Below are positions 27,859 through 38,112 of a stretch of 64,000 nucleotides of DNA, piece after piece (within the stretch, counting starts at the first letter, position 1; every line of letters starts with the position of its first letter). The notes beneath the pieces were generated by a model. The model saw nothing but the letters and a program-made list of their open reading frames with translations. It was not told the DNA's origin and searched no databases. The stretch is from a virus. The stretch spans positions 124,001 to 188,000 of the IMG/VR virus record IMGVR_UViG_3300044701_003953. One strand, written 5' to 3'. A program made the position numbers and the translations under genes.

Positions 27859-28962
27859 TTATACCAATAAAATTCTTCGTTTGGCGAAATTTTGGACTTC
27901 TTTGGGCAATAGATCAAACATTCGATCTCCTCGTAGTTTATCCATCATCAACGTATGTGCAATGGTATGGTGGAACAGATCTTCTGTGTTGCCTATCATT
28001 GATCGAGCCTGCTGATAGACACGTCGATTGTGATTTTGATTTCTGTCCGGCGCAAAATCAATTTCAGGCAGGAGGTCCTTTAACTCATAGGGCAAAGTCG
28101 ACAAAGAAAGGAAATCCGGTCCTTCTAATACTGATGTATTTAGAGTTATAGATTTATCTCGGCACCAATCTACCAATTCTTGTAGGAACCATATATTCAG
28201 TAGTCCCAGTGTGCAAAAAACAAATATTTCTGTGTCGGGTCTTTGCTTCCGATATGCCAGTAGAGATTCTATATTTTTTTCTGCACGATCCCAGTCTAAT
28301 CCCGATCTTACCATCTGCCCGGGCTCTCCGATAGCTTCCAGACTGGCATAGACTCTTGTCTTCTTAAAATGTTTCCAAAGTTCGGTGACTTCTTTTCCTC
28401 GGTAGTTTAAAGTAGTGAGGTTGGTATTGTATCTCAATGAAATGTTTCTGCTCCGACCATTTTCGATCAATGTATCTAACAATTTCCAATGATCGGGGTT
28501 TAGCATAGGTTCGCCGCCAGTGAAATAGATTTCTGTAAGTTCTTCGTTAGTGATTCCCTCTAACATAGGCCATACATTGAATCTTTCAAATTCGAGATCT
28601 CCGACCAAACTAGTCCAACTGCTACTGAAGTTGGGACTACAGATACGGCAAGTGAGATTGCAGGTGTTGTTGTTTCTGAGGTCGAGATATTTTATCGAAT
28701 CTCTTTGCCCAACATCGTCACCATAGTTTTTCCTGTAGGATTCTAAACCATTTTGCTCGTCTTCCCAACAACCTCGACAGCCTTGGGGACATGACCCCGA
28801 TAACATCTCTTGCTGTAGATCCTTAAAAGTATCTACCCCTTGGAAATTTTCCCCAGATCTGGCTAACTTGTAATCATAGATACAGCAAGGAGCAATCTTA
28901 CCGTCGGGGTAGACAGTGATGCTATTCCAAACGGCATTACAGATAAAAGGCTTGCCTGTCAT
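27859..28962 (-). CDS. Radical SAM protein with SPASM/twitch-type Cys region
   Basis: 367 residues. Unusually the accessory Cys motif is N-terminal (FICNAVWNSITVYPDGKIAPCC, and CPQGCRGCW near 62-70). The radical SAM cluster motif CNLTCRIC is near 104 and FTGGEP near 148. These enzymes modify peptides, nucleic acids or sugars by radical chemistry. It begins directly after the methyltransferase stop (TAA then ATG). Twitch-type radical SAM proteins are known from marine phages; the substrate is unknown. Confidence 0.88.
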   Translation of the reverse strand: MTGKPFICNAVWNSITVYPDGKIAPCCIYDYKLARSGENFQGVDTFKDLQQEMLSGSCPQGCRGCWEDEQNGLESYRKNYGDDVGQRDSIKYLDLRNNNTCNLTCRICSPNFSSSWTSLVGDLEFERFNVWPMLEGITNEELTEIYFTGGEPMLNPDHWKLLDTLIENGRSRNISLRYNTNLTTLNYRGKEVTELWKHFKKTRVYASLEAIGEPGQMVRSGLDWDRAEKNIESLLAYRKQRPDTEIFVFCTLGLLNIWFLQELVDWCRDKSITLNTSVLEGPDFLSLSTLPYELKDLLPEIDFAPDRNQNHNRRVYQQARSMIGNTEDLFHHTIAHTLMMDKLRGDRMFDLLPKEVQNFAKRRILLV

Positions 28963-29895
28963 TTAATTGTTAGGTTTGATTGTACCCAAGACTTGGTGTG
29001 CTTTAACAGTAGTAAGTTCGCCGGGTCGTTTAAGTTCTATCCAACTTACAGCCGGTTCGAAGTCTTGGTGATTGATGATCTCAAAACCCAACATCTCGCA
29101 CATAGGTATCAGCAGACTTTTTGGCATATATGTCATGTAGTATCTTTCGGCATATTCGGCCGCGGCCGGTAAGTCTCCGTTGTTGTAACTGAACAAGACC
29201 TTACCACCCGGCTTTAGCAAGTTGTATATCTGTTGTAGATAATGCTTGATGGTGTCGAGACTAAGATAGTTAAAATGGTTCCAACTAAATACGAACCCAA
29301 ACTGTTCCTGTGGTAACATAGAAAAATTTTGATCCTTAATTAGATATGGGCGTATGCGACGCTGATAATCCGTGTTAAACGCTTTGACGGTAGAGTCAAG
29401 GAATTCTTGGTGAACATCTGTGACATACAAAGGGTCTCCAGCCACCAGATGTTTAGTGAACTCTCCGTCTCTGCATCCAATCTCTAGAGTGGCATATCTC
29501 CAATCAAGGTTAGCATCGATTCTGCTCATCAATATGGGCTCAGCATGTTGCGGTATATAAAGAATACGAGCTTGCCTTACACCTTCTGCTTCGTTGTAAA
29601 CAAATTCAGTTTCGTAGTTAGCGGCAAAAAACTTTTTAGTGAGTTCTTCGATATCCTGCAAGAGATTATTTGTCAGCAGGGTTTTTCTTGATTCAATGAT
29701 ATCAAGTTCAGCAAGTTTGATATCAATAAGCTGTATGGTGTTATTGACTATGCTAGAATAATTTTCAGTGAGTTCATATCGATCGATGATCAATTCTAGT
29801 TTCTTTCGCAGATCTGCCATGGCAGCAACGACTTTGCTAACATCAAAAGCTAGATCGGCGTCGTTTTTTAGTGAGACTAGTTTATTGAGTTTCAT
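28963..29895 (-). CDS. Class I SAM-dependent methyltransferase with helical N-terminal region
   Basis: 310 residues. The N-terminal ~110 are helical (VSKVVAAMADLRKKLELIID). The methyltransferase core follows: ATLEIGCRDGEF (motif I), YVTDVHQEF, FVFSWNHFNYLS and LKPGGKVLFSYNN. It is paired with the radical SAM gene, so the two may act on one target. A late-type AATAAATA lies 12 bases before the ATG, over the end of the polymerase gene. Confidence 0.85.
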   Translation of the reverse strand: MKLNKLVSLKNDADLAFDVSKVVAAMADLRKKLELIIDRYELTENYSSIVNNTIQLIDIKLAELDIIESRKTLLTNNLLQDIEELTKKFFAANYETEFVYNEAEGVRQARILYIPQHAEPILMSRIDANLDWRYATLEIGCRDGEFTKHLVAGDPLYVTDVHQEFLDSTVKAFNTDYQRRIRPYLIKDQNFSMLPQEQFGFVFSWNHFNYLSLDTIKHYLQQIYNLLKPGGKVLFSYNNGDLPAAAEYAERYYMTYMPKSLLIPMCEMLGFEIINHQDFEPAVSWIELKRPGELTTVKAHQVLGTIKPNN

Positions 29896-32647: not shown

Positions 32648-32908
32648 TTACAGCGTACGACCAACAGTCTCAAGGATGGTGGTCAACTCTTCGTGTTCGT
32701 GAGTGGTTTCACCGAACTTGCTCTTTTGTGCGATCTTGATCGCTTTTTTCAAGATAGCAGGTTTGACTTCTAGTTCTTCTGCGATGGCCTTGATGGTGTC
32801 ATTGAGGCCGGCGCTGAGGTCTTCGACTTCTTGTAGCACAGCGATGCCTTCATTGATGAGTTGTGTGAGCTTGGCTTTCTGTTCGCCGGAAAACATTCTT
32901 GAGGACAT
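32648..32908 (-). CDS. DsbA-like dsDNA-binding late transcription regulator
   Basis: 86 residues, helical. The layout of LNDTIKAIAEELEVKPAILKKAIKIAQKSKFGE and the ending EELTTILETVG resembles T4 DsbA (89 residues), which binds double-stranded DNA at late promoters. It has a clear sigma-70 promoter and AAGGAG. NATAAATA late elements elsewhere in the window are its expected targets. Similarity is modest. Confidence 0.65.
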   Translation of the reverse strand: MSSRMFSGEQKAKLTQLINEGIAVLQEVEDLSAGLNDTIKAIAEELEVKPAILKKAIKIAQKSKFGETTHEHEELTTILETVGRTL

Positions 32909-32932: not shown

Positions 32933-32961
32933 AGTATAGATACTTATTTTAAGATAGTCAA
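32933..32961 (-). promoter_or_regulatory. Sigma-70-type promoter of the DsbA-like gene
   Basis: Minus strand TTGACT, 17-bp spacer, TATACT, about 25 bases upstream of the ATG. It overlaps the last codon of the PP-loop gene, separating the two transcription units. Confidence 0.8.
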
Positions 32962-34127
32962 CCCTGGAAACTTTCTAATAGTTCCATAGCCGCTTCAGTG
33001 ACTCCGGGTTCCCAGGTATGGTATCCTACCCAATCATGATCGTAATACATCGGGGAGATCCACACTATTCTGCGCTCGAAATCGGGACTTTTAGATGCCA
33101 CTTTGATTTTTTGGTCGGCATAAGAACGATTGCCATCAAACTCGAAAATATATCGTTTAGCTTCGAGTTTCACACCGGCACGGCCCTTGTGTACATGTTC
33201 GAAATGATGCTGTAAATTACTGTAACTCCATTGCACGAATTCGTCTGTATTAAAATAACTGTACTGTGCATAATCACTATGGTGTTTTCTGTCGATCGGC
33301 TTCTTGAAATCTTTGCGAAGGTGCATAAATGGTCTCACTATTGCGGTAGCCCATTTAAAATTTACATAATGCCACCACCACCAATCTGAGATAGTCTTGA
33401 CATTTTCGGGATTGACTTCTATGAGGTTTTCGGTGATCCTTCTTACATACCATTGACCGAATTCTGGATCGGCATTGATGCTTTGATCACGATCAAAGAA
33501 ACTAGCGATGAGATGCTGATTGTCTTTAAATGGTAGGAGATGTTGATCGTTATTGACCAGATGCTTGAACGCCGGAAGAGTTGGCCCAAACACAGCGTCG
33601 CCTGGATCGCCATGTATGAGTATGTATTTTTCTAAGGTTTCATTGCACATCTCAAAATCTAACAGTTGTATGTATCGGAATCTTCCTGATATATATTTTC
33701 TAAAAAAGTCAAAGTTTTCGATGATCGATTCGGTGCTCATGACTATATCAATGATCCCTAAATCGGATTCGGAAAGATTCTTTAAGAATGAAACTAATAC
33801 AGCAGTAGAATCAATTCCGCCGCTCCACATCAGTGCTATTCTTTTGTTTGCCTTTTTAGCGTAGTTAAAGACTTCTATAGCTCGTTGATCAAACAAGTCG
33901 TGTAACTTATAGTCGACAAATTTAAGTTCAGGCATAGGATAATGATGATCGTATGGTGCTTGCCATGGAGTGGAAAAATTTCCAGTCCTGGCACGCAGAT
34001 CTTTAGCGCCTATCACCAAGTGCGCAAACTTTGACCATAGGTGCCCGCTTCGGTGCTTGATATCAAGTTCGGCTACTAGATGATTGTCAACAGCTAGGCT
34101 GTTTTTTATACCTTCAACATGGTTCAT
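32958..34127 (-). CDS. Asparagine-synthetase-like PP-loop enzyme, copy 1
   Basis: 389 residues. The ATP-pyrophosphatase loop MWSGGIDSTAVLVSFLKNL is near 98-116, and LIHGDPGDAVFGPT near 172-185 aligns with the GDGGDELFGG motif of asparagine synthetase B. There is no N-terminal glutaminase domain. Other conserved blocks shared with copy 2 are SDWWWWHYVNFKW and KLEAKRYIFEFD. Such enzymes adenylate a carboxyl or carbonyl group to form an amide or cyclic bond. The substrate is unknown. It overlaps its partner gene by 14 nt. Confidence 0.85.
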   Translation of the reverse strand: MNHVEGIKNSLAVDNHLVAELDIKHRSGHLWSKFAHLVIGAKDLRARTGNFSTPWQAPYDHHYPMPELKFVDYKLHDLFDQRAIEVFNYAKKANKRIALMWSGGIDSTAVLVSFLKNLSESDLGIIDIVMSTESIIENFDFFRKYISGRFRYIQLLDFEMCNETLEKYILIHGDPGDAVFGPTLPAFKHLVNNDQHLLPFKDNQHLIASFFDRDQSINADPEFGQWYVRRITENLIEVNPENVKTISDWWWWHYVNFKWATAIVRPFMHLRKDFKKPIDRKHHSDYAQYSYFNTDEFVQWSYSNLQHHFEHVHKGRAGVKLEAKRYIFEFDGNRSYADQKIKVASKSPDFERRIVWISPMYYDHDWVGYHTWEPGVTEAAMELLESFQG

Positions 34128-34797
34128 TTTTTAGAAGTTCAATTGATTTATTGATCGATTCGGTGAAATAGTATGCACTAATAGGTATCAGTCTGATCTT
34201 TTTCTCGATGTCTGCTTTAATCTCATTGAGAGGACGACTATAATCTAGATCCGATAAAATGCGAAAAAGTATGCCTTGGAATTCTTCGAGTATTTTTTTC
34301 GGTACATCTTTGTTGATTATTTCTCGATCGACAAACTCTTGTACAGCGACATCATTGGGCACTGTCAAGGATATAAACTTTTTAAACACTCTTAGACCTT
34401 TTTTGAGAGTCTCGACCTGTCGTAGATCCCTATCAAGTATATGATAGTTATGATCTCTAGATTTTTGTATAAAATCAAAAAGGAAATGCATTTTTTCTTT
34501 ATACTCTATATCGTCCTGCGTGAACTTAGTCCTTGCTGGCACGAGCCTATATGAAGGATTTGTAAAATACATGTCGATCTCTATCCGTATTTTTTCTCCA
34601 TTGGCTATAGTGACGTTCATGCATCGATCATTGTTCAGGAGATTTGGTCGGTAGTTAACGATGCCGTTTAAATCTACTAGATACAGCAATTCATGGTTCA
34701 TGGTTATCAACTGCAAATATTTTAAACTTTCGTAATCACTGTTAACCATAATGAATCTATTACGAAACGTATTGAACAATGCATATTCATTTGACAT
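34114..34797 (-). CDS. Unknown partner of PP-loop enzyme, copy 1
   Basis: 227 residues from the ATG at 34797 with AAAGGA upstream. I know no family. It is related to the product of 35962-36699: LKYLQLITMNHELLYLVDL matches MKLLQFVLMKQKFFFCINI, and FISLTVPNDVAVQEFVDREI matches FVKLTIPNDENIDNFVDWEI. The second half is helical and charged. Each copy is encoded just upstream of one PP-loop enzyme, so it probably presents the substrate or forms a complex with that enzyme. Confidence 0.8.
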   Translation of the reverse strand: MSNEYALFNTFRNRFIMVNSDYESLKYLQLITMNHELLYLVDLNGIVNYRPNLLNNDRCMNVTIANGEKIRIEIDMYFTNPSYRLVPARTKFTQDDIEYKEKMHFLFDFIQKSRDHNYHILDRDLRQVETLKKGLRVFKKFISLTVPNDVAVQEFVDREIINKDVPKKILEEFQGILFRILSDLDYSRPLNEIKADIEKKIRLIPISAYYFTESINKSIELLKNEPC

Positions 34798-34804
34798 AAA
34801 ACTA

Positions 34805-35965
34805 TTATCCTTTAAAAGTTTCAAGTCGATAACAAACTTGCTCATTGAGATAGTCTTCCCAACGAAAGTAGCCTTTCCAATTTCGATCAAAGCATATCGG
34901 GTTGTCGGATGAAGTGCGAGTAATGACGTCGGGTGGGGCACCGGCTAACTTTGGTTTATTCTCAAAATAGAATTCATTTTTATCGAGCTCGAAAATATAT
35001 CGTTTGGCTTCGATCTTGTGAGACTTCATGCCGTCCTTTAAAAGATTTTTGAGATTGCTATAACTCCAATGCTGGAAGTATTCGGTGTTATAGAAAGTAT
35101 TTTCTGCGAACGTTTTTTGATTTTCGATGCTGATGCCTTTTTTTACATCTTTTTGGGAAAAGATAAAAGGTCTCTGGCAGCTGAATTCCCATTTGTAATT
35201 GTAATATGTCCACCACCACCAATCACTGACGGTAGTCACGTTGTCGGGGTTCACTTCTTCGATGTTATCGGTTATTTTTTTGACTATCCAATTTCCAAAA
35301 TTTGGAACAGAGTACGGCAGATGTTTACCGGGCTGACAGAGATCAATGAGTTTTTTAAAATGTTTTTTATAACTTTCTTTATGTTCGCCACTGATTATCA
35401 ACTCTCGATATGCAACAGTAGTTGGGCCGTAGAGACAATCTGCTGGGTCGCCATGCACTAAAATATTTTTATCAAGAAAATCGTCATTAAGGTCTAACAA
35501 CGAGTAATGGAAACATTTTATTTTATTAGAAATAAATTTCATATAAAATTCAAAATTTTCCACCATTGAGCCAGTGTTCATCACCACAGTCAATAATTCG
35601 AGATCTGTGCTACTTAGATTTTTAATAAAAGACGCCAAGACTGCGGTAGAGTCAATACCACCACTCCAAAGTACAAATATTTTTTTATTTGTTTTTTTGG
35701 CCACAGAAAATATTTCTAATGCTCTTCGATCTAATAGATCTGAGAGAGAATCGTTGATGAATTTGAACTCGGGCGCAGAATAAAAACTATTGCTAGGAGC
35801 ATTCCACGGAGTAGTGAAAGTACCCAATCGTGCTCTTAGGTCGTGTACTCCGATAAAACTATCTAGAGTCGATTTCCACATTTTTCCGTAGGGATTTTTT
35901 AGGTTGCCGGCAATGTTGAAGTTGCGCACGTCAACCATGATGGAATCTTCTATTTTTATAGTCAT
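34805..35965 (-). CDS. Asparagine-synthetase-like PP-loop enzyme, copy 2
   Basis: 386 residues, homologous to 32958-34127 along its length: DLRARLGTFTTPWNAP, VLWSGGIDSTAVLASFIKNL, ILVHGDPADCLYGPT, VSDWWWWTYYNYKW and KIEAKRYIFELD are shared blocks. The PP-loop (SGGIDS) and the second motif (GDPADxxYGP) are both intact, so this copy should also be active. Divergence between copies suggests different substrates rather than a recent duplication. AT-rich compared with the polymerase gene. Confidence 0.85.
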   Translation of the reverse strand: MTIKIEDSIMVDVRNFNIAGNLKNPYGKMWKSTLDSFIGVHDLRARLGTFTTPWNAPSNSFYSAPEFKFINDSLSDLLDRRALEIFSVAKKTNKKIFVLWSGGIDSTAVLASFIKNLSSTDLELLTVVMNTGSMVENFEFYMKFISNKIKCFHYSLLDLNDDFLDKNILVHGDPADCLYGPTTVAYRELIISGEHKESYKKHFKKLIDLCQPGKHLPYSVPNFGNWIVKKITDNIEEVNPDNVTTVSDWWWWTYYNYKWEFSCQRPFIFSQKDVKKGISIENQKTFAENTFYNTEYFQHWSYSNLKNLLKDGMKSHKIEAKRYIFELDKNEFYFENKPKLAGAPPDVITRTSSDNPICFDRNWKGYFRWEDYLNEQVCYRLETFKG

Positions 35966-36699
35966 TGTTCTTTTAACACTGATAGTAAGGTTTTTTTAAA
36001 AACATCAGATAAGAATATTTTTTTCCAATTGGTATTGACGTAGTCCAACTTACCAAATTCCAATGAGTTTATTTTTTCTTCGATGATTTTTTTTGCATCG
36101 TCTTTTCGATAGTTTACGTTAATCAATAAATTTATTATATCTGATTTAAATGGTCTTGCTCGTCGAATAGCGTTGTTTCTAATTTCAATTTCCCAGTCAA
36201 CAAAGTTATCGATGTTTTCGTCGTTTGGTATAGTGAGTTTTACAAACTCTTTTAACTCGATAAACCCGTTGATTTCATCGCGGAACCTTCTTTTTTCTTG
36301 TTCCTCAAATTCGTCGACGATTTTTTCCAGGACGTGCAAAATTTTCTGCAATAACAATAAGTTGGATCTCAATATAGGGTCTGGAGGCGAATGCGAGTCC
36401 ACGATTTTAGTTAGATGCATACCGGGGTCGGCGTCGAGTTTGATGTGTTTTACTGCTTTTGGTATACAGCCGAACTCATGACAGTTGTTATTGTCTATAT
36501 TGGAAGTATCTTTTTCAGATTCGAATTTTGATATGTTGATACAGAAAAAAAACTTCTGTTTCATAAGCACGAACTGTAACAGCTTCATGACTTTATGATT
36601 ATCATCTATTAGATAAAAGCAATTTTCGGGCAACCCAAGAAGACCATATACGTCGGCATCGGATTCGAATCTTCTAAAAAAGGGAAAATGTGCTGTCAT
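35962..36699 (-). CDS. Unknown partner of PP-loop enzyme, copy 2
   Basis: 245 residues, paralogous to 34114-34797. The N-terminal third is beta-like and hydrophobic (ENCFYLIDDNHKVMKLLQFV), the middle is charged with several His/Cys (NNNCHEFGCIP), and the rest is helical. It is the first gene of the cassette behind its own promoter, and its stop overlaps the start of PP-loop copy 2 (ATGA). Function unknown. Confidence 0.8.
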   Translation of the reverse strand: MTAHFPFFRRFESDADVYGLLGLPENCFYLIDDNHKVMKLLQFVLMKQKFFFCINISKFESEKDTSNIDNNNCHEFGCIPKAVKHIKLDADPGMHLTKIVDSHSPPDPILRSNLLLLQKILHVLEKIVDEFEEQEKRRFRDEINGFIELKEFVKLTIPNDENIDNFVDWEIEIRNNAIRRARPFKSDIINLLINVNYRKDDAKKIIEEKINSLEFGKLDYVNTNWKKIFLSDVFKKTLLSVLKEQ

Positions 36700-36727: not shown

Positions 36728-36756
36728 ATTTTACTATCTTTTAAAAGATTAGTCAA
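36728..36756 (-). promoter_or_regulatory. Sigma-70-type promoter of the PP-loop cassette
   Basis: Minus strand TTGACT, 17-bp spacer containing the palindrome ATCTTTTAAAAGAT, TAAAAT, about 28 bases upstream of the ATG at 36699. The spacer palindrome could bind a repressor. A GC-rich hairpin without a clear U-tract (CTGGGCCC-GAG-GGCCCAG, ~36778-36795) lies between this promoter and the isocitrate lyase stop. Confidence 0.78.
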
Positions 36757-36828: not shown

Positions 36829-38112
36829 TCAGTGGAACTGCTCTTCCTCTGTGGAACCTTTGAGGGCTTGTGTGGATGCGTCAGCTTCGATGGTCGTAGT
36901 GACAGCGTCGAAGTAACCTGTGCCTACTTCCCTTTGATGCTTAACAGCTTCAAAACCACGGCTCGCATCCGCGAACTCACGTTCTTGTAACTCCACGAAA
37001 GCAGACATACCGTTCCTAGCATAACCATGAGCAAGGTCAAACATGCCATGATTAAGAGCATGGAATCCAGCAAGTGTGATGAATTGAAAACGGTAGCCCA
37101 TTGCTCCAAGTTCACGTTGGAAACGGCTAATTGTGTCTGCATCTAAGTTCTTCCTCCAGTTGAATGATGGCGAGCAGTTGTAGGCTAACATCTTACCTGG
37201 ATGGTGCTTGTGTACTTGCTCTGCGAATTCCTTCGCGAATTGTAAGTCGGGCTTTCCTGTTTCACACCACACGAGGTCTGCGTAAGGTGCGTAGGCGACG
37301 GCTCTGCTGACTGCTTGATCGATTCCGTTACGGGTTCTGTAGAATCCTTCAACAGTTCTTTCACCAGTAAGGAAAGGCTTGTCGTTGTCATCAATATCGC
37401 TAGTGATAAGGTCACCGGCTTCGGCATCAGTTCGTGCAATAACAAGAGTAGGCACGCCCATAACATCACTAGCGAGGCGAGCGGCAACAAGTTTATTGAT
37501 GGCTTCTCTGGTTGGTACAAGGACTTTTCCTCCCATGTGTCCGCATTTTTTAGCAGACGCTAATTGGTCTTCGAAGTGTACACCAGCGGCACCAGCTTCG
37601 ATCATGGCCTTCATCAGTTCAAATGCGTTTAACACGCCACCAAAGCCGGCTTCGGCATCAGCTACGATGGGTGCGAAGAAGTCGTGATCATCTTTACCTT
37701 CCATCCACTGTATCTGATCGGCACGACGAAACGTGTTGTTGATCTTGCGGACCACGGCGGGCACAGAGTTCACTGGATACAAGCTCTGATCAGGATACAT
37801 CTCTCCGGCCAAGTTGGCATCACCTGCCACTTGCCAACCGCTTAGGTATATGGCTTTGAGTCCTGCTTTGACTTGCTGTAACGCCTGCATGCCTGTCAAC
37901 GCACCCAAGGTGTTGACATAGTCCTCAGTGGTCAGTAGGTTCCATAATTTCTTGGCTTGGTCTATCGCGAACTGATCGGGATATACACGACTGCCTTGCA
38001 AGCGAACTACATCATCGGCGGTGTAGTCTCGTTTGATGCCCAACCACCTTGGGTTGGTACTCCAATCCTGTTGTATCTGATAGGCTTTCCAGCTACGAGT
38101 GTTTTCAGACAT
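36829..38112 (-). CDS. aceA: Isocitrate lyase
   Basis: 427 residues, full length (E. coli 434). Cleaves isocitrate to glyoxylate and succinate in the glyoxylate shunt. The signature KKCGHMGGK with catalytic C190 is intact; [20 protein letters not shown] and [10 protein letters not shown] carry substrate and Mg contacts, and the active-site lid ending GSTEEEQFH is present. A TATAAATA late element and GAGGAG ribosome site precede it. It is monocistronic. A phage isocitrate lyase is unusual. No malate synthase is seen here. Confidence 0.96.

Follow-up and report, generated by a model that had tools for sequence, protein, structure and literature searches.

Two tandem phage cassettes pair an asparagine synthetase-like PP-loop enzyme with a candidate adaptor protein

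Two enzyme–partner gene pairs beside a phage DNA polymerase

We analyzed a stretch of 64,000 nucleotides (hereafter the window), corresponding to positions 124001-188000 of the 207,520-base viral record IMGVR_UViG_3300044701_003953, for a block of four minus-strand genes that we term partner1, enzyme1, partner2 and enzyme2. They form two cassettes, each consisting of a partner gene followed by an enzyme gene. On this strand the gene order reads isocitrate lyase, partner1, enzyme1, partner2, enzyme2, a conserved 86-amino-acid (aa) gene and DNA polymerase. Because the polymerase directly adjoining the cassettes is of the B family, the source genome is assigned to a large T4-like phage.

An earlier note on this DNA had described two homologous asparagine synthetase (AS)-like proteins, each preceded by a gene for a related partner. 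This description was borne out. Enzyme1 and enzyme2 are 42% identical over 386 aa (E 6e-111) and partner2 is 20% identical to partner1 over 206 aa (E 3e-8), so that the two pairs are related. The partners have a block in common that reads FVKLTIPND..FVDWEI or FISLTVPND..FVDREI. In both enzymes SGGIDS is intact, and a second motif is present as HGDPADCLYGP in enzyme1 and HGDPGDAVFGP in enzyme2. Also as described, the genes overlap (partner1 with enzyme1, partner2 with enzyme2) or nearly touch, with 7 nucleotides (nt) between enzyme1 and partner2, and they are AT-richer than the polymerase gene (GC content of 34-41% versus 49.5%, and 46.3% for the window). An in-frame ATG further upstream, at ~34845, is a possible alternative start of partner2.

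The promoter expected in front of the four genes has a counterpart in a sigma-70-like site predicted from the sequence, TTGACT-17-TAAAAT, whose end lies ~29 nt 5' of the partner1 ATG. Together with a TATACT-containing site after the cassettes it makes up all minus-strand promoter-like sites matching at 10/12 positions. The region holds 16 promoter-like sites versus 13.5 expected from shuffles, and the upstream site is therefore notable by position only.

Table 1 Features of the cassette region in window coordinates
Feature	Position	Strand	Remarks
partner1 (class II partner)	35962-36699	-	245 aa; homologous to partner2, matched by the partner hidden Markov model
enzyme1 (class II), PP-loop AS-like ATPase	34805-35965	-	386 aa; modeled, pLDDT 92.7
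partner2 (class III partner)	34114-34797	-	227 aa from ATG at 34797; pLDDT 92.6
enzyme2 (class III), PP-loop AS-like ATPase	32958-34127	-	389 aa; both motifs intact
Promoter-like TTGACT-17-TAAAAT, upstream of cassettes	36728-36756	-	10/12 consensus
Promoter-like TTGACT-17-TATACT, gap after cassettes, before 86-aa gene	32933-32961	-	10/12
Conserved 86-aa gene	32648-32908	-	context only, outside the system; precedes DNA polymerase

The enzymes are PP-loop proteins without a glutaminase domain

In enzyme1, SGGIDS occupies residues 101-106 and HGDPADCLYGP residues 171-181, followed by WWWW (249-252) and the invariant lysines K317 and K337. The PP-loop and HGDP motifs are invariant in 28 members of the clade, and a core consisting of SGGxDS, R46, W252, K258, W300, K317 and K337 is invariant over 71 sequences, bacterial ones included. 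An AlphaFold model based on these 71 sequences (mean predicted local distance difference test score, pLDDT, 92.7) places SGGxDS between strand E95-99 and helix H104-116. PP-loop enzymes lead the fold search, the best matches in the Protein Data Bank (PDB) being carbapenam synthetase, the hydroxyamidotransferase TsnB9, asparagine synthetase and LarE. The invariant loop core, its modeled position and these matches thus identify the enzyme as a member of the PP-loop (N-type) ATP pyrophosphatase superfamily. As modeled, it shares the ATP-binding core with its PDB matches but not the remainder. Full-length matches, with template modeling (TM) scores of up to 0.84, were obtained in a library of viral structures. 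They are proteins of uncultured phages, some of which carry the name 'asparagine synthase' (e.g., UniProt A0A6J5LYZ2; TM 0.81-0.84); these entries were compared by fold, and the names are database names only. Prion-protein matches in a PDB sequence search (E 0.15-0.9) were rejected as chance hits to an aromatic-rich stretch.

The two enzymes start with MTIKIED.. and MNHVEGI.., and the PP-loop lies ~100 residues from the N-terminus, leaving the glutaminase domain absent. Since the N-terminal glutaminase domain and its catalytic Cys at position 2 are missing, the enzyme is not a true class-B asparagine synthetase (AsnB). PF00733 matched none of the window proteins, and the best TIGR01536 match (E 0.011) was far below the cut-off. 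Bacterial relatives of the enzyme (19-28% identity) carry TGEHGDQLFGS at the place that HGDPGDCLFGP occupies in the phage proteins. In a single comparison of the bacterial-relative profile with a full-size AsnB homologue (probability 95%, E 3.8e-8), SGGLDS and the transitional motif VTGEHGDQLFGS both aligned, with GEHGDQLFGS equivalent to GEGGDPCFGG. The phage profile itself aligned with AsnB over the PP-loop half only, and phage HGDPxDxxxGP corresponds to the alignment position of the second motif. The AsnB alignment ends before the region of K317 and K337, the two candidates for a catalytic C-terminal lysine near the active site. With the bacterial relatives bridging the gap to the AsnB homologue, the AS-like PP-loop branch is the most likely home of the enzyme, as a divergent member that lacks the glutaminase, in line with what the earlier note had proposed and with the motifs, the model and the N-termini.

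The PP-loop SGGxDS and the arrangement of a PP-loop domain with a helical region behind it are common to the enzyme and to AsnB and AS-like ligases such as beta-lactam and carbapenam synthetase, TsnB9, lasso cyclases, TsrC/ScdTA and the nitrile synthetase PesC, as is probably a second acidic-glycine motif (GExGDxxFG in the bacterial relatives). Unlike these, the cassette enzyme is shorter, has no glutaminase domain and contains unique DWWWW and WSYSNL blocks, and it comes with a dedicated helper protein in tandem, paired, phage-borne paralogues. Its similarity to beta-lactam synthetase and lasso cyclases is distant only.

PP-loop enzymes of the TilS/TtcA/MnmA/QueC type modify tRNA, and the enzyme gave weak matches to QueC and PAPS-reductase-like families. 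With this precedent, relatives annotated as MnmA in Pseudomonas phage Cygsa01 and a DNA polymerase next to the cassettes, the enzyme might be taken for one that modifies tRNA or phage DNA while the partner binds RNA or DNA. We regard this as unlikely. The ATP-binding signature is common to the enzyme and to LarE, TilS, QueC and MnmA, but the weak local profile matches cover little past the PP-loop, the second conserved motif appears to be of the AsnB type and no recognized RNA-binding domain was found in the libraries scanned. Moreover, the family alignment contains no invariant or nearly invariant Cys, such as sulfur chemistry in those enzymes relies on, which makes thiolation unlikely.

In the cultured phage Cygsa01 the relatives are two tandem proteins (XAI71054 and XAI71056) that align over the family core, with the PP-loops WSGGIDST and, in the second protein, FSGGVDCT. 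They are ~19-30% identical to the bacterial relatives, a 90-aa protein stands in place of the 230-aa partner, and the pair is located after long-tail-fiber and Gly-rich genes. The annotation as MnmA (L119, PP179332, 7422-9571; L numbers are our handles for contigs and loci) looks like a misnomer, given that the core aligns with the AS-like family.

Enzyme and partner are inherited as pairs

Scans of IMG/VR with the enzyme yielded 16 and then 47 contigs. The earlier note had staked its two-component reading on partners co-occurring with enzymes in other genomes, and they do. A partner adjoins the enzyme, mostly directly upstream, in 36/47 contigs of the enzyme clade, a count of contigs rather than of independent events, as many of the 47 are near-duplicates. 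Partner-seeded scans recovered 16 contigs and the enzyme was present in all of them (16/16); the queries were two groups of class III partners, to which this count applies. Relatives carry one, two or three tandem cassettes per contig. Three old cassette classes can be told apart (first, middle and last position), of which the window holds the middle and the last.

To compare inheritance, the enzyme tree was set against the partner tree for 42 pairs, giving a Mantel r of 0.854, whereas the maximum of 2000 full permutations was 0.195. When partners were exchanged among the cassettes of one contig, the mean r was 0.41 and the maximum 0.76, so that 0.854 was never reached. The trees thus agree cassette by cassette, and the duplication most likely involved the whole pair and predates the divergence of these phages, each enzyme keeping its own partner. 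This agrees with the duplicated two-gene unit of the earlier note. Enzyme and partner genes alike are under purifying selection (ratio of non-synonymous to synonymous substitution rates, dN/dS, of 0.04-0.10 where dS was measurable), and the partner diverges faster than the enzyme. A GC content lower than that of the neighbors and lineages without partner could be expected of neutral or decaying duplicates with no function of their own, but low dN/dS, a PP-loop invariant in every copy and the matched trees make this explanation extremely improbable.

No further full copies outside the cassettes were present in the 12 large records searched. Among the cultured phages of INPHARED, neither enzyme1 (limit 1e-5) nor partner1 had a homologue, and enzyme2 gave chance-level matches only (E ~8). 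An enzyme fragment 64% identical to that of the window was found at the extreme end of a contig from a Polynucleobacter metagenome-assembled genome (L066 6941-7246) and may represent host DNA beside phage DNA or an assembly chimera.

Single-cassette lineages show a conserved AAAGTGAGCA-like element ~20-25 nt 5' of a TATAAT-like box. The loci that carry it in front of the cassette are L039, L041, L046, L048, L056, L057, L060 and L062, with one exact match across seven large records, at the cassette. As a genome-wide promoter motif, AAGTGAGCA..TATAAT was rejected, its single occurrence in the seven records being at the cassette.

The modeled partner has a small N-terminal domain and a helix bundle

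The model of partner2 (pLDDT 92.6) combines a bundle of long helices with a small beta-beta-alpha-beta domain at the N-terminus, and partner1 is predicted to have the same architecture, with a helical C-terminal part. No fold match was found for the partner2 model in the PDB, the best being ESCRT-III helices at E 0.45. The partner was also considered as a RiPP (ribosomally synthesized and post-translationally modified peptide) recognition element (RRE), a PqqD-like winged helix. This was rejected, as no RRE was among the listed fold matches and no Pfam match reached threshold.

More distant viral enzymes have, directly upstream, proteins of ~210-280 aa that we call A9-type. Their N-terminal similarity to the partner is weak and collinear (hhalign score 27.7 versus ≤14.7 for column-shuffled controls; probability 6-18%), which makes homology to the partner possible to probable. 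A 347-aa protein following a lone enzyme (L006/L018) was not supported as a diverged partner (E 0.27); read by eye, it has Rieske-like C-x-H motifs instead. In these two contigs (L006 4022-6532 and L018 7172-9682), inspection by eye showed the partnerless enzyme followed by a Rieske-motif protein (CPHKH..CPVHKW) and a methyltransferase-like open reading frame (ORF).

Some distant relatives lie beside tail genes and cupins

A scan with a bacterial-type alignment gave at least 334 confirmed places in viral contigs, and the neighborhood survey covered 46 dereplicated loci. Nearly half of these have a cupin within five genes and ~20 have an A9-type upstream protein. The sequences comprise the clade of the window's cassettes (support 1.0), a large A9-type clade, a Gly-rich tail-protein clade and bacterial sequences with cupins. 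The Gly-rich neighbors match phrog_2056, 'tail fiber protein; host specificity', corresponding to the gp38 adhesin type, for which a polyglycine sandwich has been described (PMC6851490). Other neighbors include baseplate gp8-like, tail sheath stabilizer and terminase genes, and in Mu-like prophage loci the tail-fiber position is taken by a Pro-rich tail protein together with a 199-aa protein and the enzyme. This gene order suggests a virion protein as target of the distant relatives; the window's cassettes do not adjoin tail genes.

At individual loci, a gp38-type Gly-rich adhesin precedes a PP-loop enzyme of 563-576 aa, in some cases with a cupin in between (L138, L142, L167, L190, L202 and L204); together with L196 these enzymes form one clade. 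In the Mu-like loci L083, L100, L215, L219, L220, L223 and L224, a tail protein with a Pro-rich (PTPTP/PPPP) C-terminus is followed by a protein of 197-208 aa, the enzyme and, in several, a cupin. A bacterial chromosomal operon (L067, L070, L074, L077, L082, L087, L092 and L097) consists of a cupin, a 127-131-aa protein and the enzyme; in L067, scanned against curated families, the latter two matched none. A full-size AsnB homologue accompanies cupin and enzyme in L086/L088/L090. A census of the Xanthomonas prophage host family found 2/249 genomes positive, and bacterial copies are hence sparse.

A role in counter-defense or host takeover, through early inactivation of a host factor, or as a toxin-antitoxin-like poison-antidote pair was weighed as well. 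The host-like promoter, the AT-richness, the varying copy number and the faster divergence of the partner would suit it. Contrary to this idea, PADLOC returned no defense-system match except a weak QueC match limited to the PP-loop (E 0.006), distant relatives often lie among late structural and packaging genes, and the copies are strongly conserved and in tandem. We consider such a role quite improbable.

A two-component adenylating ligase as proposed function

Genes, homology, paired inheritance, selection, the modeled PP-loop fold and the missing glutaminase together support a reading to which we assign a probability of roughly 0.5: each cassette would encode an adenylating ligase of two components, with substrate choice falling to the partner and the substrate probably being a protein. 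The enzyme would bind ATP at SGGIDS and use it to adenylate the substrate at a carboxyl (or amide) group, releasing pyrophosphate, after which reaction with a nitrogen nucleophile would yield an amide, lactam or similar linkage. The partner would bind its own cognate enzyme and deliver or select the substrate, and the tandem cassettes, three in other phages, would be ancient paralogues serving different targets or successive steps. Some target is probably modified during infection, and the two substrate specificities suggested in the earlier note are plausible in view of the ancient paralogue classes.

AS-like enzymes are known to act on peptides in C-terminal amidation, lasso cyclization and ATP-dependent C-terminal nitrilation, the last of which proceeds only after an iron enzyme has carried out a hydroxylation (PMC13060819). 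The cupins beside the distant relatives are compatible with such a pattern of a ligase following an iron enzyme. RiPP maturation with an AS-like enzyme follows the same logic of an adenylating ligase with a recognition component, sometimes joined by an iron enzyme; the cassettes differ in having no adjacent precursor peptide gene and a partner without RRE fold match.

Alternatively, the enzyme could be the product of an auxiliary metabolic gene that forms an amide on an amino acid, a cofactor or a nucleotide-sugar precursor, with the partner as regulatory or structural subunit. In two virome papers 'asparagine synthase' of phages is counted as an auxiliary gene of amino-acid metabolism, although these papers do not tie it to the present enzyme family (PMC10980836, PMC8226683). 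This phage also carries other metabolic genes, e.g., isocitrate lyase, and the bacterial relatives pair with cupins, which are common among small-molecule enzymes. Nonetheless, the absence of a glutaminase domain argues against this view, and the existence of two to three paralogue pairs side by side, in which the partners diverge faster, points to recognition of a macromolecule over a single metabolic step. We therefore find a small-molecule substrate doubtful.

Several results weigh against the proposed two-component ligase. The PDB fold matches are weak (best Foldseek E 3e-3, TM ≤0.39), so that placement in the AS branch rests on the motifs and the bacterial intermediates. No Pfam or NCBIfam family reached threshold for the enzyme, and its PHROG matches cover little past the PP-loop. 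In 11/47 contigs the enzyme has no detectable partner, indicating that the partner is dispensable in some lineages or has diverged past detection; these contigs represent two lineages (L022/L053, which correspond to L006/L018, and L054-L059, L062, L063 and L065). The small substrate ORF that the earlier note had proposed to look for did not materialize, as the gaps within and around the cassettes (7, 49 and 129 nt) are too short for a precursor-peptide gene beside the enzymes. No convincing Gly-rich or Pro-rich adhesin substrate was found in this genome and none near the cassettes, which confines the adhesin idea to the distant relatives. Likewise, the search of this genome for a cupin found none, and a cupin is accordingly not essential here.

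More broadly, and tentatively, the family may constitute a widespread, undescribed class of phage protein-modification systems in which AS-like adenylating ligases with substrate-adaptor proteins (and a cupin in other lineages) covalently finish phage proteins, in some phages, e.g., tail-fiber adhesins, and in which cognate cassettes multiply so that several targets are served. We see this as possible rather than probable.

The type of chemistry is known, while the two-component, multi-copy phage arrangement is undescribed. The literature searched, which largely excluded subscription journals and preprints, held no description of the cassette, nor did the libraries, and its standing in the earlier note as a candidate undescribed system is upheld to that extent. 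Only the demonstration of a protein target would place it in a category of its own. If the proposed function is true, phages modify proteins by asparagine synthetase-like chemistry with dedicated adaptors, for which we found no phage description, and a testable function would be gained for at least 334 related genes in viral contigs, which have no Pfam, NCBIfam or PHROGs family and here and there go by the names asparagine synthase or MnmA.

Genes surrounding the cassettes

The 86-aa gene is also found 3' of the cassette in DNA-polymerase-linked relatives. Directly 5' of the cassettes lies the isocitrate lyase family protein (36829-38112, minus strand; PF00463, E 8e-108), and isocitrate-lyase-like ORFs occur at the equivalent place in L004 and L005. 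Behind the polymerase, a radical-SAM/SPASM protein and a methyltransferase are encoded (window 27859-29895). Further SPASM-like proteins, identified by eye, are located elsewhere in the genome (L123 2846-5114 and L125 8110-13282).

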